A stretch of DNA of 64,000 nucleotides from Coptis chinensis (lineage: Eukaryota; Streptophyta; Magnoliopsida; Ranunculales; Ranunculaceae): contig CM027380.1 of the NCBI GenBank assembly GCA_015680905.1, forward strand, positions 106,793,001 through 106,857,000. The letters run 5' to 3'. This document shows, one piece after another, positions 7,555 through 58,744 of the stretch. A program made the position numbers and the translations under genes. The notes under the pieces were generated by a model that was given only the letters and a program-made list of their open reading frames with translations, ran no database searches and had not been told where the DNA came from. Every line of letters starts with the position of its first letter. The stretch's first letter is position 1.

Positions 7555-7735
7555 CGGGTTTCCTAGGCTTACCCGGCGCCCACCTTTTGGTACAGATATG
7601 GAATGAATTGGTTTCCACGCAAGTGGTAGTTCGATATTTTCAAAAGTTGTAATGATACCGATCTGGATTTCTGGGTGGTCCCAGCAGATCGGTGGATTTG
7701 TGAACTGGTTTCCTAAGTTTGTTCAGGCAGTTCAC
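7555..7735 (+). ncRNA. Hairpin cluster in 3' region of antisense gene, element 1
   Basis: Three bulged hairpins follow the stop of the antisense gene. (i) 7605-7632: outer stem GAATTG/TAGTTC, bulge GTTT, inner stem CCAC/GTGG, loop GCAA (GNRA type). (ii) 7658-7692: outer CCGATCTG/CAGATCGG, bulge GATTT, inner CTGGG/CCCAG, loop TGGT. (iii) 7700-7735: outer GTGAACTG/CAGTTCAC, bulge GTTT, inner CCT/AGG extended. A weaker form lies at 7555-7575. Counterparts occur at 56858-56964 and 58603-58744 with compensatory changes. The shared plan is an outer stem, a T-rich 4-6 nt bulge on the 5' side only, an inner stem and a small loop. Confidence 0.75.
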
Positions 7736-7899
7736 ATTATGAATGTTTATGAAATGCATGTCATTTACTTGGGTCCATCTGCTTGTACATATGCTTTGTT
7801 ATTTCTTCGTTATAGCCTCTTGTTGTAGGTTTACAAGGAATAAGGTTTGTAGAGGCTAAGAAGACTAAGATTTAGCTGAAGGAAGTGTTCTGCTCTTAG

Positions 7900-8345
7900 A
7901 GAGCATTCTCACTGATGTGATCCTAGAGTTATAGGTCCTCAACTAGTGAGGATTGGAGAGGCTATGGAGCCTATGAGCTCAAGAGGGCGTGTTGCTCGCG
8001 AAGAGCGTGTTAGCTTAAGAAAGCGTAGTGCTCCCCCGTGTTAGCTTAAGAAAGCGTAGTGCTCGCTGAGAGCGTGTTAGCTTAAGAAAGCGTAGTGCTC
8101 CCCCGTGTTAGCTTAAGAAAGCGTAGTGCTCGCTGAGAGCGTGTTAGCTTAAGAAAGCGTAGTGCTCATGAAGAGCGATCTCATTGAGTTGCTCCTAGAG
8201 TTATAAGTCTTTAACTAGTGGGAATTGGAGAGGATATGGAGCCTATAGCTCAAGAGAGCGTGTTAGCTTAAGAAAGCGTAGTGCTCGCTAAGAGCGTGTT
8301 AGCTTAAGAAAACATAGTGCTCGCTGAGAGCGTGATAGTAGTTCG
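7900..8345. repeat. Tandem repeats in 3' UTR of Tat element 1
   Basis: A longer unit beginning GATCCTAGAGTTATAGGTC occurs near 7920 and, as GCTCCTAGAGTTATAAGTC, near 8194. Between and after them the subunit GTGTTAGCTTAAGAAAGC recurs seven times (first near 8007, last near 8297) at spacings of about 31 and 36 bases. The longer unit is related to the 138-bp unit at 58990-59800 in element 2, but here the subunit rather than the whole unit has multiplied. Tat-lineage elements are known for variable tandem repeats between pol and the 3' LTR. Confidence 0.85.
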
Positions 8346-8482
8346 CGTATGCTGGTGGCTTTTTCAGTGCGAGTTTATGCCTGATGATGAACTTGAACAG
8401 AGTGGGTTGCAATAGCACACATAAGTAAATCATACCAAAGTTTGTAATAAATAGAAACATGCATTGCAAAAACATTACACTT

Positions 8483-9705
8483 TTATTGATAAATTTTTTT
8501 TAACAAATAAGTGTTCCAAGGACGTGATAATGGTTTCCCTTCTTGGGTCTTAATCCAATACGCTCCATTGTTGACGATGCGTTCTACTATGTACGGACCT
8601 TCCCATGTTAGTGCGAGTTTAGCATCGTCTTGAGTCTTTTTCAGAACTAGGTCACTAGGTTGAAAAGATCGAGGATTAACTCGCTTGTTGTAGGATTTCT
8701 TTAGAGTCTGATGGTAAAATGCCACTCTGATGGCTGCTAGGTCACGACGTTCTTCCAGCAAGTCGACCTCTCGAGCTAGGACGGAGTCATTTTGTCCAGA
8801 CTCGACGAGCTCTGACCGAGTCGTGGTGACTGTTAGTTCGGTAGGAATAACGGCTTCTATGCCATAGCATAATGTAAATGGTGACTCGCCTGTGCTAGAA
8901 CGAGCTGTAGTTCGGTGAACCCATAGAATATTCTCTAGTTGGTTTGGCCATTGGCTCTTGTTCTTTTCAACCTTTTTCTTCAAGTTTTCCAAGATGGCTT
9001 TGTTGCTAGCTTTTGCTTGGCCATTGCTTTGGGCATACTGGGGAGTGGAGATTGCATGGACGATCTTCCACTTGGCCAAAAACTCCTTGACTATTTTTCC
9101 CTTGAACTGGGAACCATTGTCCATCACCAGTGTGTGTGGCAAGCCAAATCTGGTGATGATGTGTGTCCAGATGAAGTTTTTGATGTGTGATTCCATTACA
9201 TGAGCTAAGGGGATTGCTTTGACCCACTTAGTGAAGTAATCAGTTGCAGCCAAGACAAATCGAAAACCAATGCTCTTTTGTGGGATGAATAGTCCCATAA
9301 TGTCCAAGCCTCACATGTGAAATGGCCAAGGGCTGGCAAATTAATGTTGATTAACTTGCGAGTTGGCTGAACGATATTGTGGCCAAAAGTTTGGCATTTG
9401 ATGCACTTAAGTACGTACTTTTTGGTATCGATCTGCATTTGTGGCCAGAAGTACTCCTGGGAGATCGCTTTGTGAGCCAAGGAGCGACCTCCAGCATGGT
9501 TCCCGTATTCACCCTCATGGATTTCTGCAAAAATCAACTGACCTTGTTCTGGCCTTATGCACCTTAAATGAGGTCCGCCAGCAGACTTTTGGAATAATTT
9601 GTTGTTGATTAGGCAGTAACAACGTGCTTGATACTGTACTTGTCTGGCTTTGGTACGCTCTTCTGGGATTGTATCATGTTGGATGTACTCTATGATGGGC
9701 TGCAT
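8483..9705 (-). pseudogene. Ty3/gypsy (Tat) integrase, element 1
   Basis: Two overlapping frames (9705-9205 and 9307-8483) cover the protein. The first has the HHCC zinc-binding region (HEGEYGNHAGG...CIKCQTFG). The second has the catalytic core, with the first Asp in ATDYFTKW, the second in VMDNGSQF, and then SNGQAKASNK. The third catalytic residue should be Glu, as in element 2 (NGQAEASNK); here codon AAA gives Lys. The C-terminal domain ends near the stop at 8483, with a DLVLKKTQDDAKLALTWEGPY block. With a frameshift and a lost catalytic Glu the enzyme is dead. Confidence 0.9.
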
Positions 9706-10366
9706 CTAAGTTTGACTCATCTGACCATCAGAGAGTGGGCATATGTCGCTAACTTCCAAGATGTGTTCGGTTTGGTAAGAAGGTCGGTCAATTACTTCAA
9801 TGAGTAACTGTCTAGGGGCGCAATTCGGTATCTGGGTAGCCAGATAAGCTAAACTGTCCGTGTGACGATTCTTGTCACGCAAGAAGTGATGTATGGAGGC
9901 TTTCTTAAAAGAAGGAAGTAACTGATAAACAACTTGAAGGTATTTAGAAAGGTTACCTTCATGGGTAGTGTACTCTTTAGCAACCTGGCGAACAACCAGT
10001 TGCGAGTCACTAAAGACTTGAAGCTCTTGTACACCAAGCTGTAGTGCCATTCTGAGCCCCATGATTAGTACCTCGTACTCTACCTCGTTGTTGGAGGTCG
10101 CAAAATTAATGCGAACTGATTTCTCCATCTGGGGACACTAAGACGACTCCAATTATACTCCCTCTAGGGTTGCTAGAACCATCTACAAAGAGAGACCAGA
10201 TAGACTTGTCCTGCTTCTTCATGGCTGGGGTGTCTGTTTCTTGTTCCCAATTCAGGTCATCGACAGGAAAATCTGCTAGAAAATCTGTAACGACTTGTCC
10301 CTTCTGAAAAGTACGTGGGAAAAACTTAATGTGATGTTCTCCGAGCTCTTTTGCCCATACCGCCAT
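9706..10366 (-). pseudogene. Second (additional) RNase H domain of Tat element 1
   Basis: The coding reads LFVDGSSNPRG, then ATSNNEVEYEVLIMG, FSDSQLVVRQVAKEYTTHEGNL and RDKNRHTDSLAYLAT. These supply the Asp, Glu, Asp and final Asp of an RNase H of the plant/archaeal type (RVT_3-like). It is separate from the retroviral-type RNase H that follows RT at about 10402-10750. A second RNase H between RT-RNase H and integrase is a hallmark of the Tat lineage. One frameshift near 10110-10130 splits the domain into two overlapping frames. Confidence 0.85.
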
Positions 10367-10401
10367 GCGAGTTGTCTTGTTTTCCTTAAGAAGGATCTTC
10401 T

Positions 10402-11480
10402 TTAATGGGAGGTCGGTGAGTACTTTGATGGGATATGCTTGAAAATAAGGCCTGAACTTCTTTGCAGGTAAGAGTAGTTCTTTTCAGCTGGTGTTAATGT
10501 CTTACTTGTGAAGTAGATCAGCTTCTCTGAGTTGTCCTCCTTGAAGAAAACCGAACTGATAGCAAAGTCTGACACTGCTAGGTAGAGCCCCAGCGTTTCT
10601 CCATCTGTTGGTTTTGCTAGGACGGGTGGTGTCGTCAGGTATTCTTTGAGGGTGGAGAACACTTGGTGGCACTGGTCATTCCATGAGAACTGTTCTCCTT
10701 TTTTAAGAAGTTGTAAGAAAGGTCGACATTTGTCTAACGCCCTTGATATGAATCGGTTGAGTGTTGCCACCATTCCTGATAGCTTATGTACTTGTTTCTT
10801 TGTCTTTGGATCGGGCATTTCCAGGAACGCTCGAATCTGGTCTAAATTGGCTTCGATCCCTCGTTGTGATACTTGATACCCGAGGAACTTTCCGGAGGAC
10901 ACTCCAAAAAGGTATTTCTCGGGATTTAGCTTCATCTGAGTTCGGCGTAATCTAAAGAACGCCTGTTCAAGGTGAGTGAGGTGGTCACCTGCTTTTTTGC
11001 TCTTGACTATCATGTCATCGATATAGACTTCCATGGTATCACCCAACATGTCCTGGAACATGTCAGTGACAAGTCGTTGATAAGTCGCTCTAGCGTTCTT
11101 GAGGCCGAACGGGAGGACGTTGTAGCAGTAGATTCTCTGTTCAGTGATGAACGACGTTTTCTCTTGATCTTCTTCAGTGAGTGGGATCGATCGGGTTGTA
11201 TCCACTGTATGCATCCATAAATGACAGGAGCTCGTGACCACAAGTCTGATCGATAAGTCGGTCGATTCTAGGTAAATGAAAGCTATCTTTTGGTGTTTCT
11301 TGGTTGACATTGGTGAAGTCAACGCAGAGGCGGATGGTGCCATTCTTCTTTGGAACTGCTACTATGTTAGCGATCTAGTCTGGGTAATCAACTTTCCGGA
11401 TGAAACCGACTTGCTTGAATTTGTCAACCTCATCATTGATTGCTTTTTAAAATCTTAGGGATAATATCCGAGGTCGTTAT
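10402..11480 (-). pseudogene. Ty3/gypsy reverse transcriptase plus RNase H, element 1
   Basis: The main frame (11343-10402) carries LPFGLKNARATYQRLV, the catalytic MEVYIDDMIVKSK (positions near 11015-11035) and GKFLGYQVSQRGIEAN. The connection and RNase H region ends in SEKLIYFTSKTLTPAEKNYSYLQ. The upstream part (FIRKVDYPD, KKNGT, RLCVDFTNVN near 11330-11410) is in another frame and has a stop where element 2 has Trp (EWVANIVAVP). The Tyr-Ile-Asp-Asp motif is intact but the frame is not. Confidence 0.88.
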
Positions 11481-11880
11481 CGAACTGGCCTAGCATTAAG
11501 ATTAACATTTAATCTATGACATGCAACACTAGAATCGATACCAGGCACATCGATATACGACCAAGCGAAAACATCTTTATTCATTGATAAAAAGTTTACA
11601 AGCTGGGCCTTGAGTGTAGGGTCAAGGTTAGCACATACATAGACGAACTTAGGATCGTCCTCTGTTCCTAAGTTCACTTGCTCATTTTTTGCTTGCTGAA
11701 CTGCTGCTTTTGAAGATGAGGCAACCTTAGGGGAACTGATCTCTGGAGATGCTTTGTCGATCTGAGGAATGGAGGTATTGGCAGCAGGAGTTGGAGTGAC
11801 CTCTGTGGTTACGACAACAGGGGCTGATGCGACTTCTGTGGTCATGACAACAGGGGCTGGAGTGATCTCTAGAATCTGTA
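11477..11880 (-). pseudogene. Protease-RT linker and RT N-terminus, element 1
   Basis: An open stretch (11845-11477) begins with a low-complexity segment rich in Thr, Val, Ala and Pro (repeats of VVTTEVTP/TPEVAS type). It ends in the conserved Ty3/gypsy RT entry segment NKDVFAWSYIDVPGID...VACHRLNV. The repetitive part continues into 11885-12000, where PPVRTPEVA is repeated at least three times. The linker has probably expanded by short in-frame duplications. Confidence 0.65.
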
Positions 11881-11884
11881 CCGG

Positions 11885-12565
11885 TTAACTAACAAATTCT
11901 GGGGTGACCTCTGGGGTCCTGACTGGTGGAGTAACTAATGCTGAAGCGACCTCTGGGGTCCTGACTGGTGGATGCACAGGAAGTTTGGCGACCTCTGGGG
12001 TCCTGACAGACGAATAGACTTTTTTACTAGATCTCCTAGCGTTCTGCTTTAGTGCTTTGGATCTGACCTCAGCGATTAAATCTTTAGCCATTGTGTAACT
12101 GGTGGGCTCGTTCCTAGTGCTGATAGGTAGGTCGATAGACTTGTTTGCTGATAGAATCTGGTTACAATGATAAGCCTCAAGCTGATTGCTTTGAAGCTCC
12201 ATCATATCCCTAAGGCCGAGGAAGCGGAGCACTTGATGCAGTGTCGATGGTACAACTTGCATTTGGTGAATCCAACACCGTCCTAGGATTGCGTTGTAGG
12301 ACGATTGGATGTCTAGAACGCTGAAACGCAAATTGAAGCTAACTTTGTCTTCCCTAGATCCTACTGAGACTGGGAGTATGATGTCACTAATTGGGTCAGC
12401 TCTGGAGCCATTGAACCCATAGAGAGGAGCCATTGGGTCTATGAAGACCGACTTGGGCAGGTTCATCTCCTGGATGGTATGGTAGAACAAGATGTCACAC
12501 AAACTATTGGGATCTATCAGAACGCGCTTGACTGTCCAGTCGCTGATTTTGACGTGGACCACCAA
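11885..12565 (-). pseudogene. Ty3/gypsy aspartic protease, element 1
   Basis: The 226-residue frame has the fold pattern of Tat/Ogre-type proteases. VLIDPNSLCDILFYHTI stands at the place of the usual D-T/S-G-S-S, followed by LYGFNGSRADPIG-like and YNAILGR, the hydrophobic-hydrophobic-Gly of retropepsins. The active-site triplet reads Asp-Pro-Asn rather than Asp-Thr/Ser-Gly, which may inactivate it. Element 2 has the same downstream blocks at 63992-63544, but its active site is off-window. Confidence 0.75.
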
Positions 12566-12599
12566 GGCATCATTATGAGGGAGGCAAACCTTGTTGAGG

Positions 12600-14071
12600 T
12601 CGGCCTCTGTGAAAGTTATATCACCTGAGCTGCGACCTGAACTACGTAGGGCAGGTGCAGCCTGTGAAGAGAATTGGTAGACTTCTTGGAGAACGCTTAC
12701 GCGACTCCTTTTTTCTCTGGAGGATGGAACATAATCATCCTAAAATGTTATCATGTGTATTGTTCTGTCATTATCTCTATCTGACGAATGCTGACGGCGC
12801 TCATGGTGGGAGCGGTTGCTGGGGCGTCCTCTGCTACGAGAGCAAGCTTGGACACTCTGGTGCTTATGGCGAGCTGGAGATCAACTGCGCTTTTGCGAGC
12901 CATGAGCTTATGGCGCAGGTCGCCATCAGGAATATTGGTATAATGCTTGATATGTTCTGATTCAATGAGGTCTTGGAGGTAATACTTGGGCCCCCAGCAC
13001 TCATCGGTCTTATGACATTTTTCTCTGGAAGGCACAGTAAGGCTTGCCAGGATGATCCTCTGGTTGTCGTACGTTGGGTCGGTAATATTAAGCTCGCTTG
13101 ATTTTGTCCAGTATGTAACTGGGAGATCGAGTAAGTACAACGAACTCGTGATTGTTGCTCATTTTGTTCCCAGACTTCTATCCTTGTTATCTGGGTCACT
13201 TTTTAGAGGGTGGGGCATCATCAGATATTGCTGCTACCTCTTGTTCTTCTAAGAGGCCTTGACGCTTCAGGCCCTCTTGTAACTTGATGAATTTGTCAAC
13301 GCGAGCGTATAGCTCAGACAACGTCTCTGGACGTTCTTTCATCAGCAATTTGGAGAGCGCCGTGTTACGCACACGGCAGGCGTTGGAGAATGCCAATGTG
13401 GCGAAAGATTCTTTGAGACTACTTTCCATACATAACAGTTCGGTTTTGAACCGACCTAGGAATTCTCAAATGGTTTCATCTTCGCCTAATGAGAGTTGGA
13501 AAAGTGAATCAAGATCAGCTATCGTATGCCTATTGTGGACGTACTGACTAGCGAACAGATCAGTGAGTTGCTCGAAGTTCTTTATCGAGTCTGGCTCGAG
13601 TGAAAGAAACTAGTCAAGCGCGCCATCTTTAAGACTGGCTGGAAACAAACGGCAATGGAGATGGTCGAATTCTTGAGCATTATAGAGTGCAAGGCTCTGA
13701 ATGTAGCGAGCTACGTGTTGACCTGGACACGTGCTGCCATCGTATATTGCAAAAGTGGGTTGAACAAAATCTGGAGGGGATGATTTACCAAGTACATCAG
13801 CTGTGAAAAGGGATGCACGGTACGTTTTTAACATCTTCTGAATGATCTGGGTAGGGTCCTTCTTAACTGCGCTCTAATATATCCTTTGTGGAAGCTCGTT
13901 GATCTGTTGATTTACTTCGTTGATGTCGTCCTCTCCTATGGCACCTGGTGTATTTTGTGTGTCTACTTGCGCATGTAAAGCAACATTCTCCTGCCTGAGC
14001 AGCGTAATGTGCTCGTTCATTGTACCTAACTGAACTGCAAAACTCTGGATTTGAGCTTCGAGGCTTTCCAT
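12600..14071 (-). pseudogene. Gag of Tat element 1, broken into several frames
   Basis: The N-terminus (14071-13874) starts MESLEAQIQSFAVQLG and is a short coiled coil. The capsid region follows in other frames: FAIYDGSTCPGQHVARYIQSL (about 13760-13690), then DLFASQYVHNRHTIADL near 13570-13520 and ETLSELYARVDKFIKLQE (13340-13270). A C-terminal region lies at 13140-12751. At least four frame changes are needed, so this copy cannot make Gag. It follows directly after the primer-binding site at 14146-14155. Confidence 0.75.
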
Positions 14072-14145
14072 GCTTCGTGGGCTTGAGGATTTTGTTTATT
14101 GGTTTTGGGATTTGTGAAGTGGTTTCTCAAGAAATCGAGACCATA

Positions 14146-14155
14146 GATGGCGCCA
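14146..14155 (-). other. Primer-binding site, element 1
   Basis: On the - strand TGGCGCCATC begins one base after the LTR end (14157). TGGCGCC starts are typical of plant Ty3/gypsy elements. The tRNA cannot be named with certainty. Confidence 0.8.
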
Positions 14156-14156
14156 A

Positions 14157-14715
14157 TGTAAATGAGCGTTTTAGCCTTCCCTTACATACAAGATTAGGAG
14201 GAAATGGGGATGGAATATTTGAAAGACCGAGTTCGTTGTTGAGCGAACTACCTACGTATCTATCTCTCGATTCTGGGGGCAGAGAAGAATCAGGTCTGAC
14301 GTAGTTCATATGGGGGATATTTATAGCTGGTGAAAGTGGATCCCTATCCAACACGTGTAATGAAAAACACAAATTTATGGTTGAGATTGAGAAGGAGTAT
14401 TAGAGTGGTGTTGGTAGGAATTCTATAATGATGGAGAGTGGTTACAATGGTTCGTAATTTGCGGTGATGAAGTGTGTAAGTACAGCTTTGGCAATGATTG
14501 CTTCTAGAAGATAGGCTGAGTCATGATATAGAACGCTCTGTGTGAAGATGTGCGAGTTGATCTATTCTAGAGCGATCTCATAGCTCATGGACATGAGTTG
14601 ATGATGTAGGTCGCTCTGAAGGTAGTTCGGAGAACTAGGTCAGAGGTCGGTGTGGTATTTCCACTATGCTGAATACGTGCTTGATATTCATGAATGGGAA
14701 TATCACTCCCTCACA
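14157..14715 (-). repeat. 5' LTR of Tat element 1 (559 bp)
   Basis: On the + strand it runs from TGTAAATGAG to CTCACA, beside the primer-binding site. It shares blocks with the LTR of element 2 (53807-54333): CCTACGTATC, AGAATCAGGTCTG(A/G)CGTAGTTCATA, and the end GAATATCACTCCC. A TATA box for the - strand lies at 14318-14325. The partner LTR is missing from the left end. Confidence 0.8.
14318..14325 (-). promoter_or_regulatory. TATA box in LTR of element 1
   Basis: TATAAATA on the - strand. The conserved block GAACTACG...CGTAGGTAGTTC starts 15-20 bases downstream, at the expected 5' end of the element RNA. The same TATA occurs at matching positions in the LTRs at 53970 and 26121. Confidence 0.6.
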
Positions 14716-14718
14716 AGG

Positions 14719-15488: not shown

Positions 15489-15694
15489 GAGCAAGTATAA
15501 TGGAGAGCTACTAAATTGGGCTGCTAAAAGGTGCCACATAGGCCTTTTAGCTTGCCCAGCCAAATTTGGCACCTCAAAATCAAAAAACCAAATCCAATCA
15601 TGTTTTCTGTTTTGAAGTGCTAAATGATACGGACGGCAAAAGTTTCACGCCATCCGTCCATTATTTTATAACTTAGGTTGAATTTTTTTTGGAC

Positions 15695-15757
15695 GGACGA
15701 CATAGTTTCTGCCGTCCGTCAAAATTTAACACACGGACGACAGAAACTATGTCGTCC
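15695..15757. repeat. Near-perfect 25-bp inverted repeat, 13-nt loop
   Basis: The arms 15695-15719 and 15733-15757 are reverse complements with one mismatch. They begin GGACGACATAGTTTCTG and end CAGAAACTATGTCGTCC. The sequence lies inside the Tourist-like MITE. A third, diverged copy of the GGACGG word lies at 15629-15660. Confidence 0.85.
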
Positions 15758-15854
15758 ATCTCCCGAATTTATTATAGCAGCTGCTAGCGAAGGTCTTAAC
15801 TTTGGCTGGGTTTTTTACTCCTTCCATATTTAAGACCCTTTTAGCAGCCCCATT

Positions 15855-16397
15855 TAGGGGTGGAACTTGGGTCGGGTTAGCCCAAGCCCGATGGACTAAA
15901 ATCCAACTTTTGTTGGTCCTGGGCTAACATGTCAGATCCGTGGTCTGGGTTTGGTTTTGTAAAATTAAAACCCGACTCGGTTTTAGGTTGGGCTTGGGTT
16001 AGAATATTAAAAAATCGAAAACCCGAGCCCGTGTGCATATACGTACGTATATCTTTCAATCATTCTATTTTTGTAAAAAATAAGGTTGAGAATCTCTATT
16101 TTAGAGAGAATAATGTAATCAACAAGGTTATTTTCTCTTTCAAACAATCAAATCTCTTTGATTTCATTAGAAGATTTCAATTTTAGTGTTTTTTATCTCA
16201 TAATTCCAAAAAAACCCCAAGAAGTTTGAGTAACCCGACATAACTCGACCCAACCCGAATTGGTCGGGATAGGGCTTGGGCTGAAATTTTAAAGACCGAT
16301 TAGGGCTTGGTCCCAAGCTCAGGTTGAAACATTTGAAACTCGGGTTGGGCTCGGGTTATGCCTCAACCCAACCCAACCTGCCCGAGTTCCACCCCAA
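15855..16397. mobile_element. hAT-like MITE, copy 1 (543 bp)
   Basis: The ends read TAGGGGTGGAACTTGGG and, reversed, TTGGGGTGGAACTCGGG. They are flanked by the 8-bp direct repeat GCCCCATT at 15847-15854 and 16398-16405. An 8-bp duplication and GGGGTGG ends point to the hAT superfamily. The sequence is rich in GGGTCGGGTTGG words. It carries no transposase and was inserted into the Tourist-like element. Confidence 0.85.
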
Positions 16398-16551: not shown

Positions 16552-17078
16552 TAGGTGGAACTCAGGCGGGTTGGGTCAGGTTGAGGCATAACCCGATCCC
16601 AACCCGAGTTTCAAATGCTTCAACTCGAGCCCTGGACCAAGCCCTAGTCGGTCTTTAAATTTTCAGCCCAAGCCCTAGCCCGACCAATTTGGGTTGGGTC
16701 GGGTTATGTCGGGTTGGTCAAACTTTTCGGATTTTTTTTGGAATTATGAGGTAAAAAACACCGAAATCGAAAATCTTCTAATGAAATCAAAGAGATTTGA
16801 TTGTTTGAAAGGAAAACTAACTTTGTTGATTACATTATTCTCTCTAAAATAGAGATTCTCAACCTAATTTTTTTAGAAATAGAATGAATTATATATATAT
16901 ATATATCACGGGCTCAAGTTTTTTGGTTTTTTGATATTCTAACCCAAGCCAACCGAGTCAGGTTTTGATTTTACAAAACCAAGCCCGGACCACAGATCTG
17001 ACATGTTAGCCCAGGACCAACAAAAATCGGGGTTTAGTCCATCGGGCTTGGGCTAACCCGACCCAAGTTCCACCCCTA
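16552..17078. mobile_element. hAT-like MITE, copy 2, inverted relative to copy 1
   Basis: This is the reverse complement of 15855-16397 over nearly its whole length, with small indels and a (TA)n tract at about 16888-16906. The ends are TAGGTGGAACTC and CCACCCCTA. GACACGGA occurs at 16544-16551 and 17085-17092 and is the likely 8-bp target duplication, although six extra bases (GTTTCC) separate it from the right end. The different duplication shows an insertion separate from copy 1. Confidence 0.8.
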
Positions 17079-17092
17079 GTTTCCGACACGGA

Positions 17093-18366: not shown

Positions 18367-19232
18367 GCTATCTTTTTGGCAAAGAAGACAATTTTTTTAT
18401 TTTATTTTTGGTATTTGGTAGGTCTATAAAAAATATATATTGGTCTGTAAAATTGACGTGGTAGGCAATATTTTGACGGGTTGGATATTAATGTGGTAGG
18501 CAAAAGTCCTAGGTTTGATATAATATAATGGCACTTTGCTAAATTGTGGGTAATAAAAGTGAAAGGATCGGCAGCTTAGTTAGTGCCACGGCAGTTTTTG
18601 TTCAATAATACAAAAGAAAGTTAAGGAATTGAGGCTAAAGAATATTGAGATGGAGTGGATCATTGAAGTGGACTTTTGTTTATCGAGTTTAGTATGCACA
18701 TGGATTGGCTAATAGATAAGGATTTTAGATAGTGAGCTTGTTAGTGAAAGGATAGGCAAGCTTAAATTGATGGTTGGTAAACTGATAGGTAAAGTTCAAA
18801 GAAACTGATCGGGAAGTCCAACTTATCGGCAAATTGAGTTATCACAATTTGTCAATTGGGTTACCAAAATCGGTTGGGCAATCGGTTTATATGCAATTGT
18901 CATTGATCGGTAAAAATTAAAAATGTCACAAAAATGAGAGGGTTGGGTATATTAACTCAAAGTTCATACAAACTCATATATTATCGGCAAATTGATCGAT
19001 TTGCGTCGAGATTTTTATTGAGAACTGGGGAATTGAGATTGGGTTTCGAATTAGTCAACTTGATCAGCAAATTGGCCTATTGGCATCTTGACTGAAAGAT
19101 TGATCTTTAGCAAACTGATGAGTTTATATGTGAAGATGATCTAGACAGTTCGGTTGAAGTGGCCAACATATTTGTGTGTGCTTTCAAATTGGGTTTTTTT
19201 ATCAGTTAGTTTCGAATTTGGTTGCTAAGTCT
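18367..19232. other. Unassigned sequence with recurring ATCGG words
   Basis: No gene recognised. Between about 18560 and 19120 the words ATCGGCAAATTG, GATCGG and CAAATTG recur irregularly, suggesting an old tandem repeat, perhaps belonging to the LTR-like sequence on its left. Confidence 0.35.
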
Positions 19233-40656: not shown

Positions 40657-41247
40657 ATGCTCCGAGAGATTGGTGTTATAGCAGTTCTATGGCTGGTTAT
40701 GGCCAATCCACTGGCGACAACTGCCCAACCTGCAGTGCTTGACACCGCAGGACAAGCACTTCAACCTGGTATTCAGTACTACATCTTACCAAGCACCACT
40801 AGTGGAGGTGGTGGTTTAACCCTCGTCGACCGCAATGGCTCCTGTCCATTGTACGTTGGGCAAGCGGCTCAAGCTGATGCAACTGGGCTTCCAGTCCTCT
40901 TCAACCCCTTTGTCTCTGACGAGACAATTATACGTGAATCAAGCGACTTCGCTATATCATTTTAAGCCTCTTCAACTTGTAAGCAACCCACGGACTGGGC
41001 ACTTGATAATGAATCTGATCCAAACATGACTGGAAGGATGCTTATAACAACAAGAGCAGAAAATGCACCTAGCGACTTCTTTAGGATCCTAAGGGATGGA
41101 AATGCTTATAAGCTTAACTACTGCCCTACTGATGTGTGCCCAATTTGTAGGTTCAGGTGTGGCGATATTGGTGTTTCTACTGAAAATCGGATAAGATTAC
41201 TGGCTTTGTATGTTCAAGCTCTACCAGTTGTGTTTAGGAGAGTTTGA
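40657..41247 (+). pseudogene. Kunitz-type protease inhibitor gene with one premature stop
   Basis: A signal peptide (MLREIGVIAVLWLVMANPLATTAQ) precedes the Kunitz signature VLDTAGQALQPGIQYYILP. The single frame is then open to the natural stop at 41245-41247, except for TAA at 40963-40965 (codon 103). This TAA stands where the intact neighbour has Asn in FNAST. After it come the matching blocks CKQPTDWAL, YKLNYCPTDVCPICRFRCGDIGV and LLALYVQALPVVFRRV. No indel is needed. The full product would have 196 residues, close to the neighbour's 202. Kunitz inhibitors are secreted or vacuolar and block serine proteases of insects and pathogens. The gene is intronless, as usual. Confidence 0.9.
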
Positions 41248-41370
41248 ATATTATGGAAACCAGAGTAATTTGATCAGTAAATTGGAATAAATTGGATGTA
41301 CGTGAGATACATTGTAACATTTATTACTTTCTGATCTGTATATACCTTGTATGATCACATGTTTATAATG

Positions 41371-46100: not shown

Positions 46101-46509
46101 AACTTGTATGTCACGTAGTGTGTACCAAAACATTTTGTAAAATGGTTGAAACTGAGAACTTGAAACTTTTTAATTTGGTATTCACTATTCAGCATTCACA
46201 CTTATCTGCCTCGTAAGTCCATTTATAGGTCTGTCAAAGCTTAGATTTGTGTTGTCTTTGCTCAACTTGTTTGAACAAACATGTTCGGAATATGGATAAG
46301 TGTACTCCTTTTGCATGTGGTGAAATTGGATACCTTTACGATAGCTGTACATGTATGACTCTTACAGTCTTAGGAACATCACTAGAGATAGGCAGATAGC
46401 ATGTTGGTACAAGTAATAAAGCCTTCATCTACTGTACACATAGACGTACTCGCAGAAACATTTATGTTTATCTTGACGAATTTGTCAACTTCTCAAATCC
46501 TCACACCTC

Positions 46510-46517
46510 TATATAAA
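46510..46517 (+). promoter_or_regulatory. TATA box of Kunitz gene 2
   Basis: TATATAAA 55 bases upstream of the ATG at 46572. This position also argues against the in-frame ATG at 46401 as the start. Confidence 0.75.
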
Positions 46518-46571
46518 TCAGCTCAATCTCAACAAATCATCAAACTTCTTTGCTTTGACACCTCTATCATC

Positions 46572-47180
46572 ATGTTGAATGTAATAGGAGTTGTAAGCCT
46601 TCTATTGTTCGTTATAGCCGACCCACTTTCCATACTTGCTCAAGGCACAATTCCTCCTGTGCTTGACACCACTGGACAACCACTCCAAGCTGGTACTCAG
46701 TACTACATCTTGCCAGCAAGTACTCATAATGGAGGAGGTGTCACCTTGGTTAACCGAAATGCCTCGTGCCCGTTCTTTGTTGGCCAAGAGGACCGCATCG
46801 GTTCAACAGGCCTTCCTGTCATTTTCACTCCATCCTTGGCTACTGAAACAGTTATAGGGGAATCCAGGGACTTTAGGATAAGATTCAATGCTTCCACGAT
46901 TTGTGTTCAATCGACAGAATGGGCACTTGAGTCTAATCCTGCTTCCACACAAAGGACACTTATAACAACAGGAGCCGGTAACAGGGCTGGTGTCTCCCTT
47001 CAAATTGATAGAAATGGAAGTGGCTACAAGCTAGGCTTCTGCCCTGAGTGCCGGCCCCCTAGGCCGCCTAGAGTGTGCCCTAAGCCTAGGTGCGGAGATG
47101 TTGGAGTTTATGTTGAAAATGGAAGGAGACTGTTGGCTTTGTATGCTCCAGCTCTTCCAGTTGTATTTAGGAAAGCTTGA
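46572..47180 (+). CDS. Kunitz-type protease inhibitor (miraculin-like), intact
   Basis: The protein has 202 residues and no intron. A signal peptide (MLNVIGVVSLLLFVIADPLSILAQ) is followed by the Kunitz signature PVLDTTGQPLQAGTQYYILP and then VTLVNRNASCPFFVG (first Cys). ICVQSTEWALE follows, then CPECRPPRPPRVCPKPRCGDVGV, which holds extra cysteines and a Pro/Arg-rich insertion, and finally RLLALYAPALPVVFRKA. Members are secreted or vacuolar inhibitors of serine proteases, used in defence or storage. I chose the ATG at 46572 over 46401 because it matches the neighbour's start and lies after the TATA box. It is a tandem paralogue of the interrupted gene at 40657, now 5.3 kb away because of a LINE insertion. 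Confidence 0.95.
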   Translation: MLNVIGVVSLLLFVIADPLSILAQGTIPPVLDTTGQPLQAGTQYYILPASTHNGGGVTLVNRNASCPFFVGQEDRIGSTGLPVIFTPSLATETVIGESRDFRIRFNASTICVQSTEWALESNPASTQRTLITTGAGNRAGVSLQIDRNGSGYKLGFCPECRPPRPPRVCPKPRCGDVGVYVENGRRLLALYAPALPVVFRKA

Positions 47181-47240
47181 ACTAAGAACAGTGAAGTCGT
47201 TTGACAATAATAGCTAAAGATGAAAAAAACGCACGCATTG

Positions 47241-49357: not shown

Positions 49358-49365
49358 CTCACAAC

Positions 49366-51420: not shown

Positions 51421-51689
51421 TTTATACATTTATAAATTTTTAACACTATATATATATCACAATTCTAGCCATAATATATATATTTCGGCGGAATAACAAG
51501 ATTCAGTTAAAGTGGACGTTGGGCTTAAATAAATTATATACAAAACCAAAACAAATTACATGTGGAAAATTAAATTATACAAAAAATAACATTACACAAT
51601 ATATAATAGAAAATGAAAAAAAAAATAACGACAAAGAAATAATAACAAATATTTTAAAACATGTATAATACTGAATGAAATTAACGTCA

Positions 51690-51975
51690 AAGAACAATTA
51701 ATGGGGAACCGAAAACTGGATCCAAATGCATCGAACTAACCTCAAATAATATTTAACGGGAATTCAGAAACTGGATGCAAATACAAGCATTAAACTAATC
51801 TTAAAAAGTAATTAATAGAAAATTAGAATATGGATACAACTACATTAAACTAACTTCAAAGAATAATTAACGGGAAATCAAAATTTGGATGCAAATACAT
51901 CAAACTAATATAAAAAAATAATTGTCGGGAAATCGGAAACTGGATGCAAATGCATTGAACTAACCCTCAGAGATT
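51690..51975. repeat. Five-fold tandem repeat, unit about 60 bases
   Basis: The unit GGGAAATCGGAAACTGGATGCAAATACAT...AACTAAC occurs near 51703, 51760, 51820, 51876 and 51927 with substitutions and small gaps. It ends just before the LTR at 51981. Confidence 0.8.
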
Positions 51976-51980
51976 AAATT

Positions 51981-52250
51981 TGTTAGAATATATCAGTATT
52001 AGAATATGTCAGTATTATAATATGTCTGGAAAGTCCCATGTTTCTATAAGTGTGGACATCCATATCTAGTAGTTTCTATTATCATGTTTTAGGTTAGTAT
52101 AAGTATGTAACTCTGGGTAGAGAACAATAACTCTCAGACTCTCTCAACCTAAGAACTCTTTAACCCTAATAAATCTCTAGTCTTCTTTGGTCTTCTTATT
52201 GGTGTCTTTAATATATCAATATCACAACTCTCCTAGCATCACCACTAACA
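51981..52250 (+). repeat. Left LTR of non-autonomous LTR element (270 bp)
   Basis: It starts TGTTAG and ends CTAACA, a perfect 6-bp inverted end. It is followed after 12 bases by TGGTATCAGAGC. An alternative end (TTTAACA, 52262) would abut the primer site. The first 128 bases match 53679-53806 with one difference. Confidence 0.85.
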
Positions 52251-52262
52251 CATAATTTAACA

Positions 52263-52274
52263 TGGTATCAGAGC
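52263..52274 (+). other. Primer-binding site, initiator-Met type
   Basis: TGGTATCAGAGC, the same site as in the copia element at 626. Confidence 0.85.
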
Positions 52275-53670: not shown

Positions 53671-53678
53671 GAGGGGAA
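53671..53678 (+). other. Polypurine tract of non-autonomous element
   Basis: GAGGGGAA directly before the TGTTAG start of the right LTR. Confidence 0.8.
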
Positions 53679-53806
53679 TGTTAGAATATATCGGTATTAG
53701 AATATGTCAGTATTATAATATGTCTGGAAAGTCCCATGTTTCTATAAGTGTGGACATCCATATCTAGTAGTTTCTATTATCATGTTTTAGGTTAGTATAA
53801 GTATGT
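53679..53806 (+). repeat. Right LTR of non-autonomous element, interrupted
   Basis: Its 128 bases match 51981-52108 with one substitution, then stop abruptly after GTATGT where the LTR of Tat element 2 begins. The remaining 142 bases should lie beyond the right window edge, preceded by a duplication of about TATGT. Confidence 0.92.
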
Positions 53807-54333
53807 TGTAAAGGTGTGATGTGATATTCCCTTACAAACAGTCTCTGGGGGACTGATATGGATGGATGGGTGAGACCGAGTTCGGCTTTGAGAGCGAACT
53901 GCCTACGTATCTTACTCTGGGTTCCTGGGGTCAGAGTAGAATCAGGTCTGGCGTAGTTCATAGGAGTGGTATTTATAGAGATTGAAAGTGTATCCTCACC
54001 CTCCACGTGTAAAGGATGTCACCAACGTGGGGTGTGGATCATGGGAGCACGTGAGAAATATCTACATAGGTCTTTCTTTGTGATGATGAGGAGTGGCGAT
54101 CGGGCAAGTAGCTTCATGGCCGTGACCCGATGGATCGATCGGGATTAGTGCAAAGTACCTTCATCATGATTGCTTATGGATAGGGTCCGTGGTCACCGCC
54201 GTAGTTCGCGTGATGTTGCGATCTGTCTTGTGGCGCGATGTTGGCTCATGGATGCGACCTGATACCATAGGTCGGTGCATTAGTTCCACCATGCTAAGCG
54301 CGTGCTGGATAGAGAATATCACTCCCCTACACA
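53807..54333 (-). repeat. 3' LTR of Tat element 2 (about 527 bp)
   Basis: On the + strand it starts TGTAAAGG and ends at CCCCTACA(CA). A pyrimidine tract (GCCCCCTACC, the polypurine tract on the - strand) follows at 54334-54343. It shares CCTACGTAT, AGAATCAGGTCTGGCGTAGTTCATA and GAATATCACTCCC with the LTR of element 1. A - strand TATA box (TATAAATA) lies at 53970-53977. Confidence 0.85.
53970..53977 (-). promoter_or_regulatory. TATA box in LTR of element 2
   Basis: TATAAATA on the - strand, followed by the conserved GAACTACGCCAGACCTG block about 10 bases downstream. Confidence 0.6.
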
Positions 54334-54343
54334 GCCCCCTACC

Positions 54344-54835
54344 GGTGGGTTGTGATAACGACTGGCGAGAGAACGGTGGCACGCTGCCAGCGTACTATGT
54401 GATAGTTGGGAATCGTCCCACGATCGATTAGAAGAACAGCTAGTGTTAACCGCGTGAGCTAGTTAGTGCGATCGTGTGACGCGTGTGCGGTGCGCGTGAC
54501 GACAGATCCGGCGATTCTGAAAAACGTGGCGCCCGTTTTTCGGGATGTGAAAAGACAAGACAGATTACTTGGAAGTCGTAGGCTAGGGCTAGGGTGTAAT
54601 CATAATGCCTTGGAAACTGGAGGGGCGGTTGTTCAAAAATTTTACTTGCTTGACTGAGACTTCATTTGGCTGCTTCGTCTGGTAGAGAGAACTTCATTAG
54701 CGCATCAATCTTCAGGTTAGTTCTCTTCCATTTTTGAACCCGTTTCCCTTGTTTGGTGCTAAGCTTCTGTGCTAGAGTTGTTAGGGTACTCTGTTAGATA
54801 CTAGTAGCTAGATTTGTTAAGCTTAGAGGAGAAAG
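54344..54835 (+). other. Leader of antisense gene A in element 2
   Basis: No ORF. A possible leader exon ends at TTCAG/GTTAG (54715/54716), which would start a 5' UTR intron like the one suggested for gene B (57437). No good TATA box was seen. Confidence 0.35.
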
Positions 54836-56527
54836 ATGTCGGATTCCAATGACACTCGTTCGAACGAGGTTCGTGAAGTTTCCCTTGGTTGGGGAGATGA
54901 GGAGGAGACAGACGAATCAGTTGGTATGCTTGGTGAGGGTGATGGGGATGAGGGATGAAGTGAGGAAGGAAGATGCTCGATCCGCTCCGCAATGGTTGCC
55001 GACGTTAGCACTTCAGACGCCGTGAGAGGTCGCTCTTCGAAATGAAGCCGCCCGCTAGGGCTGTGGATAAACACGCTTTGAGGGCGTTTCCATATCTAAG
55101 GAAGAGATATGGTATAAACGTAGACGGTCTGGAGATCCACGAGCCTGAGCGAGGCGATTTGGTCTTTAGCGATAGGTACGTCCCACCGCACCACGGGGTG
55201 ATCGTCTGTGAGGGGCAGCTGAGGGCGCATATGACGATACCATTTTCGAAGTTGGTTTGCGAATTTTTGAACCGCCAGGCAAAGCTGTGTGCAGTTAAAT
55301 GGGTAACACGCATGGCGGTTGTTGAAGGTGTTCGACCTGTTGAACGCCAGCGGTGAATACCAGATCGAAGTCGCTGATATTATTGAGCACTTCACTTTGA
55401 AGCGATCTAGGGCATATAACTTTAAGGAGCGTGGAGGGCCTGTCGTTCGGAAGAGAAGGGAAGCTCAGAAAACAAGGGCTCGTGGTAAGGGAGCGTCCAA
55501 AGAACGTGTTATGGAGAAGCGTGGGAGTGATCTGGTGACCAGAGAGGATAGAAACCGGGGTCGTACTGGGGTGAAGCGACCCCCGAAGTCTTTGGGGCCT
55601 CAGTGCGGATCGGGATGGGTCGGGAGGATGCTCCTGTCGACGTGGAGGACGCTCCCTCCGACGCTCCGGAGTACCGACCTGCTAAGACTGCGAGGGTGGC
55701 CTAGACCGCACAGGGTGGTGAGGTGCAAATGGGTGGGAGGGCAGCTCGCAACCCGAGGTCGAGGCCGATGCCCGACTTCAGCGTTCTAGTTGAGGACGGC
55801 CCGGAGGTTGCCCCGGAGGTCGCTCGACCCCGGGTTGTTGGAGATGCCTCAGGCAAGATGAAGGGGAAGGTTGGCTCAAGAGATGCTGGTAAGGGGCCGT
55901 CCAGTACTGGCAAGGACGAGCTGGAGCGCAACCTGATGTACATTGATGAGGTAACTGGGAAGAAGCGCTATGTGAAGAGGTCGGACTGCAGCTACAAGTC
56001 CGCACCCATAGCTGCTTGCTTGTTGGAGGGGATGACGCTTGATGGTGATAGGAAGGACCTTGATGCCAAGGAGCTGGAGTCGAATCTGAGAGGGGTGGAT
56101 AAGGCGATTTGTCTGGTAAGTGGTCGCGTTGTTACTGTTTGTGCTATCACTTATTGTACACTGTTGCTTATCGTTTGTTTGTGGTACTATGTGCGAGCTG
56201 CTGCAGCTGGTTGCCGGGTATCAGAAATTGAAGACAGCTGCCTTGTTTGCTGAGATGGAGAAGTCGGAGGTCGAGTCCTTGAGGCTCGAGGTCTCCGATC
56301 TCCGAGCGATAGCTCAATCGGAGAAGGTGGAGCTGGATACTCAAGGCAATAACCGGGTTCTGTTGTCTCTGGAGAGGACGTCGGCTGTGAACGAGGCGAC
56401 TGGGCTGAGGTATGAGGTCGATGATCTGAAGAAAAAGGTTGTTGCTTTAATACGCCACTGCGACGTTGTAAAAACTACCGCGATGGAGGCGAGGGGAGGC
56501 CTATCTTGCTATCCGTCTTTGAAATAG
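54836..56527 (+). pseudogene. Antisense gene A of Tat element 2 (function unknown)
   Basis: The start MSDSNDTRSNEVREV is followed by a frame break near 54950. A folded-looking region comes next (55042-55310: ALRAFPYLRKRYGINVDGLEIHEPERGDLVF...EGQLRAHMTIPFSKLVCEFLNRQ). A frame change leads to VFDLLNASGEYQIEVADIIEHFTLKR and a basic linker, then a third frame with YIDEVTGKKRYVKRSDCSYKSAPIAACLLEGMTLDGD. A GT-AG intron (56116-56206) follows the codons for Cys-Leu. Exon 2 reads LVAGYQKLK and then a coiled coil to 56527. The first region resembles in layout the ORFs annotated in databases as gypsy-type transposon (Transposase_28-like), but that is uncertain. At least three frame breaks. Confidence 0.65.
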
Positions 56528-56857
56528 AAGAACTGGAGGCGAGATATGGCGACTACCGCCGAGGAGCCTTCAAGGACACCGCAATAGACCGGCAGTCGAT
56601 TCACTCGAGGTCGGTAGTCTTTGGTCCTCGCCGGTCTCTAGCGTCGTTCTTACTCCCCGCGGTGAGGTGGTTGCGGATTAGCCTCCTGTCGTTGGCGGTC
56701 TGGGTGGGACGTTAACTGAAGGAGTGGTGGCGTCTCCTGGTGATCCGAGTTGTTCCCAAGTGCTGGACGTCCCTCTTGTTGAAGGCTTCGATGATGTTAT
56801 TTGAGAGGTCAATGTCTGGTTTTTGTGTTTGTACGCGGCCTCTGGCCTAAAACAATA

Positions 56858-56964
56858 GAGCTGTTTTCCTGGGGTTACCTGGGCAGTTCGTCCTTTTCTT
56901 TGCCTGTCTTTATGATACTGATGTTTAGTTGGGCTGGATTTCCTGGGTAGACCCAGCAGCTCGG
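56858..56964 (+). ncRNA. Hairpin pair in 3' region of antisense gene A
   Basis: Hairpin 1 (56858-56889): outer GAGCTG/CAGTTC, bulge TTTT, inner CCTGG/CCTGG with one mismatch. Hairpin 2 (56929-56964): outer TTGGGCTG/CAGCTCGG (three G-U pairs in + strand RNA), bulge GATTTC, inner CTGGG/CCCAG, loop TAGA. The latter is the counterpart of 7658-7692 and 58709-58744, with a different but still pairing outer stem. Confidence 0.75.
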
Positions 56965-57337
56965 CTTATCCGGCGACCTGAGGCTGGACTGTGGTATTCA
57001 GTTTGCTAACTGTTTTATATTAAGGCTATATTGTTATCCTTTGTTTTTCTTCCTTGCGTACTGTATGTCTGTTTGATTTGTATGCCTTTGGGTTGGTGGA
57101 CCTGTGTCACTCTTGAACTGTTTTGCGTGTAGCCGGTGTTAGCGTCCTCTAGTTAATCAGTATTGGTACGGCTGGAGCGTCCTGTGAGCAGTGGTCACTT
57201 CCATTACAGTGCGTGCTTGGCACGTGTGCGGATATGAACGGTCTGTGAAATATGAAATGATGGTTGCCAGTTGGATTGGCGTTTGGCGTCTCGATGCCAT
57301 AATGAGTTGCCTCGGGAAGACGTTTCCCTTGCATAAA

Positions 57338-57343
57338 TATAAA
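57338..57343 (+). promoter_or_regulatory. Possible TATA box of antisense gene B
   Basis: TATAAA in GCATAAATATAAATC, 256 bases before the ATG at 57594. A potential leader intron starts at CTCAG/GTATG (57437) and may end at TTATTAG (57556). Confidence 0.5.
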
Positions 57344-57593
57344 TCGCTCGGGAGAGAGCGGCGGCATTTGGACTTCCCGCTGTCTTCGCCTCTTTTCTCC
57401 TCTGAACTTGCTTGCTTTCTTTGGTCATCTTCTCAGGTATGTTTGTTCTTTCATTTTTTTTTTGTCGTGATGTTGGATGCTATCTCTCCCTCATTGGCTT
57501 TGTTTTGTTCCTTGTGCTTTAGCTTTTCCTATGGCTCGGTGTTATGGTTTTATTAGGGGAGAAGGCAGTCTACGAGAGAGCTCTCCTCTACTG

Positions 57594-58518
57594 ATGGAGG
57601 AAATGGAGTTTCATCCTCATGTGCACGAGGACCGTGGCAAGAGGAAGGCGGTAGCGTCGGGTCCAAAAACTAAACGGCCCCGGAGGTCGTGGCGCCCTAC
57701 TGGAGGTATTGTGATCAGGTCGCCCCACCGGGAGGACGGCGTCCCTCGGCCGCCGAACGGATGGACGACCTGGAGCAGGGGGGCCACGTCGCTAGTGGGA
57801 GCTCGCACCCTCGCGTTGGGGACGTGGAGAGTGAGTTCTTCTACGTCGGGAAGACGGGGAAGAGGCGTGCTGTAAAGCGCTCCGACTGCAGCTTCCACTC
57901 TGCGCCCATAGCGACTAGTCTTCTGAGGGGTATCGTGCTGGACGGGAACAAAGCTGAGGTCGAGGATGAAGATATGGATACGCTCCTGGGGACCATGGAC
58001 ATGGCGAGCTGTTTGGTGAGTACGTTGTTTGTTAATTTTTCACTCGTCCGCTTTGATTGATTTTCATTGTCCTTCCGTACTTGTAGTTTCTTGCTGGTTA
58101 TGATAAGTTGAAGAGTGTTGTGCAACGCCTCGATCATCGATATCGATGTCCGAAGTCGAAATGGATGTCTCGAGGCTGCTTTCGGGTAGCTGACAAGAAA
58201 AGGCTGGAGACTATGTCGGCTAGATGTCGTGCTGTTGCTGATGAAAATGCGAAACTTGCTGCGTCGATGGCTGATCTGCAAGTGGAGATCGCGGAAGTCA
58301 CCGAGTACGCGAAGCAATGCCAGAGGGTTGCCCGTAAGGCTCAGAACGCGTATACCACTGCCTGTAGTGAGTACGCCAAGCTGGACGAGAAATACTGTCA
58401 GCTAAAGAAGGCAGATGGGGCTCGAGAGGCCGGTATGCGTGTTGCTCTGCGAGCTGCCAGGCATGTTCCCTCAACCAGCACTGTTCCTGAGGATAAACAT
58501 GTGGTCGCTGCTCCGTGA
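57594..58518 (+). pseudogene. Antisense gene B of Tat element 2 (function unknown)
   Basis: This is the closest relative of the gene in element 1. MEEMEFHPHVHEDRGKRKAV is followed by a basic stretch, one frameshift near 57740, and then ESEFFYVGKTGKRRAVKRSDCSF with LLRGIVLDGNKAE. A GT-AG intron (58016-58086) falls after Cys-Leu. Exon 2 begins FLAGYDKLK and carries a coiled coil (RAVADENAKLAASMADLQVEIAEV) to the stop at 58518. Apart from the frameshift it is open. The position of the intron, the core motif and the coiled coil are shared with the other two genes. Confidence 0.7.
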
Positions 58519-58602
58519 TGCTGATTCTGTCTACTGGTGAGAATTTGTTTTGTGTTTGATACGAACGTGTGTCTTCTTTGCCCCTACGAGGGTTAAACAC
58601 TA

Positions 58603-58744
58603 GAGCTGCGTTTTCGGGCTTGCCCGAGCAGTTCGCTTCTTTTGAATTTGGAGAACTGGCTTCTACGAAAGTGGCAGTTCGTTAACTTTGGTTTTTGTAA
58701 TTTGGTAGCCGACCTGGATTTTCTGGGTAGACCCAGCAGGTCGG
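58603..58744 (+). ncRNA. Hairpin triplet in 3' region of antisense gene B
   Basis: (i) 58603-58634: outer GAGCTGC/GCAGTTC (one G-U), bulge GTTT, inner TCGGG/CCCGA, loop CTTG. (ii) 58653-58680: outer GAACTG/CAGTTC, bulge GCTT, inner CTAC/GTGG (one U-G), loop GAAA (GNRA). (iii) 58709-58744: outer CCGACCTG/CAGGTCGG, bulge GATTTT, inner CTGGG/CCCAG, loop TAGA. Order and shape repeat those of the other two genes. Confidence 0.8.

Follow-up and report, generated by a model that had tools for sequence, protein, structure and literature searches.

Antisense genes of Retand-like retrotransposons in the plant Coptis chinensis are followed by arrays of bulged hairpins, whose pairing is supported as being selected on the antisense-gene strand. 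The arrays were found in a stretch of 64,000 nucleotides (hereafter the window; assembly GCA_015680905.1, contig CM027380.1, positions 106,793,001 to 106,857,000, forward strand). It contains two Ty3/gypsy elements, both on the minus strand, and antisense genes on the plus strand; gene 1 is carried by the first element, whereas genes 2 and 3 stand in tandem in the second. Judged from sequence, we lean towards regarding the arrays as a conserved structured RNA element 3' of the antisense genes, which would act as a putative multivalent binding array for one protein. The hairpin array is probably a new RNA element, additional to the known antisense genes. Such a conserved, strand-specific RNA structure would imply that the antisense RNA, and not only its protein, is under selection. 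Moreover, the array gives a handle on the function of the antisense genes, as it supplies RNA baits, a covariance model and well-defined mutants for a partner search, and the array model is transferable to other plant genomes.

Bulged hairpins downstream of the antisense genes

Antisense genes 1, 2 and 3 of the window are followed by three, two and three hairpins, respectively. All are of one design, namely an outer stem ending in CTG, a T-rich 5' bulge (mostly G-N-T-T, square brackets below), an inner stem, a 4-nt loop (parentheses) and CAG. They are named here after the homologous hairpins h0 to h3 of the genome copies. Gene 1 is followed by h1 (7605-7632, GAATTG[GTTT]CCAC(GCAA)GTGG TAGTTC), h2 (7658-7692, CCGATCTG[GATTT]CTGGG(TGGT)CCCAG CAGATCGG) and h3 (7702-7733, GAACTG[GTTT]CCTAAG(TTTG)TTCAGG CAGTTC). 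The last of these has one A-C mismatch, and it is matched by the single-hairpin covariance model R2 with 46.4 bits and E 6.6e-9 on the plus strand; folded as a single sequence, it is more stable on the minus than on the plus strand. A decayed first hairpin h0 (7556-7591, plus strand) precedes them, where the array model R1 aligns from 7556 with several broken pairs and no good fold is obtained. Downstream of gene 2 lie h0 (56858-56889, GAGCTG[TTTT]CCTGGG(GTTA)CCTGGG CAGTTC, with three G-U pairs and an R2 E value of 5.2e-6) and h2 (56929-56964, TTGGGCTG[GATTTC]CTGGG(TAGA)CCCAG CAGCTCGG). Gene 3 is followed by h0 (58603-58634, GAGCTGC[GTTT]TCGGG(CTTG)CCCGA GCAGTTC) and h1 (58653-58680, GAACTG[GCTT]CTAC(GAAA)GTGG CAGTTC), both matched by R2, and by h2 (58709-58744, CCGACCTG[GATTTT]CTGGG(TAGA)CCCAG CAGGTCGG). 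All eight are read on the plus strand. Counted from the stop codon, the first hairpin begins after 54-212 nt and the last is complete by 160-340 nt; for gene 2 this stop is placed tentatively in a broken frame.

A preliminary description of the window had reported bulged hairpins of one design after each antisense gene, and all those it named were found again at the same positions. It had further held that all non-Watson-Crick pairs, about seven, are G-U on the plus strand. Over the eight hairpins, 83 pairs are Watson-Crick, 11 are G-T and one is A-C (in 7702-7733); the predominance of G-U therefore holds, while both its exclusiveness and the count of seven had to be corrected. The bare shape is common in the 64 kb, as a loose scan gave 139 occurrences on the plus and 98 on the minus strand and a tighter one 14 and 6, and a shape-only scan was rejected as too permissive a detector.

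Genome copies and covariance models

The genome searched comprises 935.6 Mb in 116 contigs, and the loci used fall on nine contigs of 85-125 Mb. The protein of gene 1 exon 1 gave 150 scored matches among 3,882 candidates, with identities of 57-100%, of which 110 were fetched, including that of the window itself. Since the copies were picked by the exon-1 protein, their choice is independent of the hairpins. Their downstream regions contain four homologous hairpins, the common forms of which (individual rows differ) are GAACTG[GTTT]CTCAGG(CTTG)CCTGGG CAGTTC for h0, CGAACTG[GTTT]CCAC(GNAA)GTGG CAGTTCG for h1, ACCGATCTG[GATTT]CTGGG(TAGA)CCCAG CAGATCGGT for h2 and TGAACTG[GTTT]CCTGAG(TTTG)TTCAGG CAGTTCA for h3. 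The alignment has 111 rows, i.e., 109 other genome loci and window genes 1 and 3. Eleven rows were removed, two with too few stem columns and nine, gene 3 included, with long terminal branches on non-hairpin columns. Among the remaining 100 rows, four hairpins are retained (at most two unpaired pairs each) in 63, three in 22, two in 12 and none in 3. Spacers are mostly 22/23/30 and 23/24/25 nt long, and as these lengths differ by non-multiples of three, the hairpin region is taken as non-coding and a coding region was rejected as an explanation of the array. The spacing is otherwise fairly fixed, with an h2-h3 spacer of 7 nt in 91 of the 93 rows having both ends.

The covariance model proposed in the preliminary description was built from 20 genome copies without any window sequence (R1). 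Over the window it recovers three sites only, all on the plus strand: 7556-7734 (E 3.5e-44), 58603-58785 (E 5.5e-25) and 56858-57006 (E 7.8e-15). The next match, at 18734-18885, is chance-like (E 0.052). The excess over chance resides in the joint sequence-plus-structure model, not in the bare shape. The second model, R2, was derived from h0 and h3 and searched in 29 loci (eight reverse-transcriptase loci and 21 of 30 antisense-gene loci). At E up to 0.05 this yielded 79 matches, to which the eight reverse-transcriptase loci contributed none. A single match is off the antisense-gene strand, and it overlaps a gene-strand match at the same hairpin.

Furthermore, R2 also matches upstream of exon 1 in 20 of the 21 antisense-gene loci, about where gene 2 ends in the second window element. 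This upstream array comprises an h0-like hairpin, GAGCTG[GTTT]CCTGGG(GTAA)CCTGGG CAGTTC, together with a long one resembling h2; in the latter, the inner stem is mostly CTGAG/CTCAG rather than CTGGG/CCCAG. If a gene ends at the upstream array in those loci, it follows that each antisense gene has its own array.

Pairing is selected on the antisense-gene strand

A G-T pair on the plus strand corresponds to G-U in the antisense RNA and to A-C in the genomic RNA, so the two strands can be told apart by the fate of such pairs. Changes were counted by parsimony on a tree built from the non-hairpin columns of the 100 rows. On internal branches, 56 changes led from Watson-Crick to G-U against 24 to A-C (p 4.5e-4; 24 vs 5 when counted by pair), and returns to Watson-Crick came 28 times from G-U against 5 times from A-C. 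The internal G-U:A-C counts of h0 to h3 are 14:3, 13:4, 12:9 and 17:8. Rates of C>T and G>A outside the hairpins are alike (0.69/0.72 internal, 0.84/0.97 terminal), and within the stems they are 0.61/0.42 and 1.15/0.86, respectively.

As a null, the same substitutions were placed randomly among the stem columns, branch by branch, in 300 runs. Paired cells at internal nodes amount to 97.4% against 90.6% in the null (maximum of the 300 runs, 92.7%); internal-node A-C cells number 37 against 314, and the G-U/A-C ratio is 8.1 against 1.85 (maximum 2.35). A joint test of the three gene families (141 rows, h0-h2, 500 null runs) gave 98.2% paired internal-node cells against 89.7% and a G-U/A-C ratio of 7.8 against 1.57, and none of the 500 runs reaches either value. 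The upstream arrays provide a further view. Their h2-like hairpin (20 rows) changed to G-U versus A-C 9:1 on internal and 17:18 on terminal branches, the pattern that selection on active lineages, followed by decay, would produce. The h0-like hairpin gave 4:1 and 14:6 in rows found by the model and hence biased. Because the R1 matches are on the plus strand, G-U is in excess on internal branches (56:24) and the ratio of 8.1 stands against 1.85, selection of pairing on the antisense-gene strand is supported by the sequence comparison. The preliminary description, which had placed the selected structure in that strand, is thus borne out on a larger set by the internal branches and the joint three-family test.

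Covariation and consensus folding

Compensatory change is found chiefly between families and between paralogous hairpins, and is weaker than the preliminary description had hoped. Outer pair 6 of h2, for example, is T-A in 85 of 92 rows of the gene-1 family, G-C in 7 of 11 rows of the gene-2 family and C-G in 29 of 30 rows of the gene-3 family, among which the window copy appears twice. When h0 and h3 are aligned as paralogues, five of six inner pairs show two-sided changes, with 43 such cells over the whole hairpin, and none of 500 shuffles reaches their covariation score, under a control that ignores relatedness. In a 20-row array alignment, two-sided changes occur in 11 pairs against 5.2 in shuffles (reached by 1 of 500), and in the joint test Watson-Crick types number 50 against 44.9 (reached by 7 of 500). 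The covariation claimed earlier therefore stands between families and paralogous hairpins, but within the main family none is significant, so that one of the two outcomes named beforehand as counting against the claim was found in part.

Consensus folding also differs between the strands. RNAalifold on 20 of the 100 rows, chosen partly for intactness, recovered the four bulged hairpins de novo on the plus strand (-48.3 kcal/mol, 48 pairs, 11 with compensatory change), against three partial hairpins on the minus strand (-19.5, 28 pairs). With 25 unpicked rows, the values were -14.4 (z -7.9) on the plus and -3.8 (z -5.2) on the minus strand.

Several results weigh against a selected structure on the antisense-gene strand and against its role as a binding array. 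A G-test of the R-scape kind with a phylogeny-preserving null found none of the 50 stem pairs of the gene-1 family significant, and doubly changed pairs are hardly above the null, both in the joint test (12 vs 8.1, reached by 29 of 500 runs) and, counted as cells, under the substitution-shuffling null (77 vs 47, reached by 19 of 300). The strand bias of h2 in the gene-1 family is weak (12:9 internal), and the terminal branches of the main arrays lean to G-U as well (224:156). As this terminal lean is not predicted by neutral decay, some mutation bias inside the stems is still conceivable. The 25 unpicked rows recover the four hairpins on the plus strand only in part. Single-sequence folding z-scores fail to separate the strands (-2.69 on the plus, -2.74 on the minus; plus lower in 13 of 33 rows). 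In the window, those of the whole untranslated regions (UTRs) are not significant on the plus strand (-0.5, -0.9, -0.5) and are lower on the minus (-1.65, -1.55, -1.97). Additionally, the loops change at about the background rate (2.44 internal, 6.94 terminal changes per site), an AlphaFold model of the conserved antisense-protein domain had low confidence (predicted local distance difference test 54) and went unused, and all copies compared come from a single genome.

Proposed function and alternative explanations

The hairpins share a core consisting of CTG, a bulge beginning G-T/A-T-T, an inner stem beginning with a C-G pair, and CAG. Across the four hairpins, the three CTG/CAG pairs below the bulge agree, as do the bulge itself and the first inner pair (majority letter 73-99%). 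The bulge is the slowest part: it changed 1.41 times per site on internal branches and 2.71 times on terminal ones, whereas sites outside the hairpins changed 2.70 and 6.15 times; at A/T sites only, the figures are 1.46 and 2.38 against 2.29 and 5.21. In the inner stems pairing is kept, and sequence is not. Because bulge and core are kept, inner stems keep only pairing and the spacing is fairly fixed, the pattern resembles that of a recognition site on a structural stem. Kink-turn, iron-response and similar motifs were set aside, as neither tandem G-A pairs nor a CAGUG loop was seen.

The arrays would lie in the 3' UTRs of the antisense mRNAs, where the repeated core would be the binding site. 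The array would be multivalent, one protein would bind it cooperatively, and the bound protein may control the fate of the antisense mRNA, whether export, stability or translation. The likeliest ligand would be an element-encoded protein, for which the antisense protein itself is a candidate. A ligand encoded by the element is our first choice, since the arrays stand behind antisense genes and the antisense protein contains the stretch GKTGKKRMVKR, which is basic and well conserved. A more specific version, which we regard as rather speculative, is a circuit in antisense resembling Rev/RRE or Tat/TAR. In it, a small coiled-coil protein, nuclear and carrying a basic patch, would be expressed from its own antisense promoter; it would recognise the repeated U-rich-bulge hairpins as a code in the 3' UTR of each of the element's two antisense mRNAs and thereby couple their expression.

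Alternatively, the hairpins might only lend stability or protection to the 3' UTR of the antisense mRNA, by hindering decay or by serving as a double-stranded-RNA-like silencing substrate or decoy, with no specific protein involved. This is unlikely, though the loops of h0 and h1 fit tetraloop classes known to be stable (CUUG closed by G-C, and GNRA), and the inner stems retain pairing rather than sequence. However, a conserved 5' bulge is superfluous for pure stability, and the four hairpins keep the sequence of both the outer-stem core and the bulge. It is improbable that the loops start kissing contacts with complementary genomic RNA, i.e., antisense regulation by base pairing. An antisense transcript would indeed cover the 3' portion of the genomic RNA, and the h0 and h3 loops fit, by column counts, YUNR, a U-turn motif of bacterial antisense RNAs. 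The hairpins would be needed in both RNAs, though, and selection favours the plus strand; the GNRA and TAGA loops are unfit, and loops evolve no slower than background. Regulation based on double-stranded RNA is raised by Vicient and Casacuberta 2020 (PMC7264820).

Still less probable, it seems, is that the structure works on the pol strand, in the genomic RNA, where it would serve export or packaging close to the 3' long terminal repeat (LTR). Retroviral export elements do lie near the 3' end of genomic RNA, a structure in Mason-Pfizer monkey virus (MPMV) being mentioned in the literature, and the whole-UTR z-scores of the window are lower on the minus strand. Against it, every plus-strand G-U is an A-C on the minus strand, with a ratio of about 8:1 at internal nodes; RNAalifold on the minus strand loses one hairpin and 20 pairs, and hairpins stand behind every antisense gene of the window. 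Least probable of all, in our estimate, are inverted repeats acting at the DNA level or functionless leftovers of local duplication. Although h0, h1 and h3 have common outer stems and resemble duplicates, G-U retention is strand-asymmetric, the bulge is one-sided, and pairing is preserved in the stems although they have accumulated 9.2 changes per site, about as many as the flanks (8.8). The binding array named at the outset is the explanation we lean towards.

Relation to known systems

Likewise, the antisense additional open reading frames (ORFs) of Retand/Tat elements (aORF-3R; Grande gene23, RIRE2, Retand ORF4) lie between pol and the 3' LTR and are accompanied by tandem repeats, according to the pertinent parts of PMC7264820 and PMC11963269. 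These accounts, as far as those parts extend, treat the proteins and repeats, whereas the RNA element is additional here, and PF04195 was not found in the window gene pieces tested. In the same parts, the function of Retand-type antisense genes is left unexplained. Antisense transcription is reported there for Grande and Retand (PMC7264820). PMC11963269 surveys the stretch from pol to the 3' LTR in the elements of 617 assemblies, and its passages on this region give TRP28 (PF04195) in an antisense ORF of 97% of Retand clusters; nowhere in its main text do the terms hairpin, stem-loop and secondary structure occur. CERV of Cer1 is a nuclear accessory protein of a retrotransposon that acts on its own RNA, as proposed here, but it acts on the sense genomic RNA, and the passages on CERV contain no hairpin array (PMC10309623).

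There is also a functional likeness to viral RNAs, for which homology is not claimed. TAR of human immunodeficiency virus (HIV) has a U-rich bulge on the 5' side near the hairpin loop, as the window hairpins do, and HIV RRE, a structured and multivalent RNA, is the target of the basic accessory protein Rev, which the literature, in the parts consulted, describes. In contrast to both, the window element is on the antisense strand, has up to four repeats and belongs to a plant Ty3/gypsy element, and its ligand is putative. Rfam release 15 gave no match at gathering score over the window, and under relaxed settings two stretches of the window and four loci yielded matches below the threshold only, none of them near it. 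Exact patterns for h1 and h2 gave no match in IMG/VR. Judged by title and abstract opening, no description of such an element was present among the matches listed in the open-licence literature.

The retrotransposons and antisense genes of the window

In a Pfam search, the minus-strand pol regions contain reverse transcriptase (RT), RNase H, a second RNase H, a zinc-binding domain and the integrase core (rve 2.4e-9, RVT_1 1.1e-19, Integrase_H2C2 4e-11 and RVT_3 3.3e-17; RT_RNaseH_2 also matched). In the first element, pol covers 8483-11358, with integrase at 8483-9310, the zinc-binding domain at 9205-9705, the second RNase H at 9706-10137 and RT/RNase H at 10402-11358. The second pol (59932-63998, integrase at 59932-60798) is 76% identical to the first over 3.2 kb. 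The domain order is that of Ty3/gypsy, and the second RNase H sits between RNase H and integrase, which we take to be a mark of the Tat clade. From these domains the window elements are assigned to the Tat clade as Retand-like Ty3/gypsy elements, the label being limited to 'Retand-like' because PF04195 (TRP28) had no match on the pieces tested, namely seven of genes 2 and 3 (five of gene 2) and one of gene 1 (E up to 0.1, then up to 1). Elsewhere in the genome, 150 of 1,297 candidates for PF04195 were scored and 17 places matched; by eye, none of these lies within 10 kb of the loci used. As these matches all lie away from the loci used, other Retand-type families probably coexist in the genome.

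Antisense genes and tandem repeats both lie on the 3' side of pol. The antisense ORFs, on the plus strand against pol on the minus, stand between pol and the 3' LTR, whose side is assigned from orientation and an LTR-like match. A tandem-repeat region (7872-8338, with 4.8 copies at 8006-8167) separates gene 1 from pol, and an array of 5.9 copies of a 139-nt unit (58986-59798) separates gene 3 from pol. Gene 1 (6453-7393) has an open frame from 6453, with exon 1 reaching 6956, a probable GT..AG intron at about 6957-7024 and exon 2 running to the stop at 7393; exon 2 encodes a coiled-coil-like sequence and has one in-frame stop in the window. Gene 2 covers approximately 54827-56804, its frames being broken in the window copy and its stop at 56804 presumed. 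Gene 3 (57674-58518), a homologue of gene 1, has exon 1 to about 58020 and exon 2 at 58087-58518, and 6750-6958 matches 57812-58020 at 74% (BLASTN). Compared by eye, genes 1, 2 and 3 have a motif around KRxVKRSDCS in common, followed in each by an exon boundary, and are therefore taken as paralogues. Exon 2 was matched in 47 of 50 loci, the window locus counted, with one match (L041) upstream. A large protein database gave 61 candidate relatives of gene 1 exon 1, none at E 0.001, and the poly(A) signal AATAAA has no consistent position downstream of the antisense genes.

A Ty1/copia-like element (4-5528, plus strand; flanking repeats 4-621 and 4906-5528, 89% by BLASTN) lies to the left of the first element and adjoins gene 1. 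R2 had no match between it and gene 1, and an upstream array of gene 1, if one ever existed, may have been lost.

The remaining window contains further repeats. A palindrome of 27 pairs (G-T allowed) at 15692-15760 precedes an inverted repeat of 540 bp (15855-16393 and 16554-17078), whose arms are 87% identical and about 160 bp apart. Direct repeats of 128 bp, 99% identical and 1.7 kb apart (51981-52108 and 53679-53806), with TGGTATCAGAGC about 160 nt past the first copy, may be a small young LTR element. The segments 53873-54012 and 14224-14360 match at 80% and resemble LTR parts of the two Tat-clade elements. Finally, 40729-41248 and 46653-47181 are two diverged copies (66%), one of which overlaps a 259-aa ORF at 46401-47180 on the plus strand.

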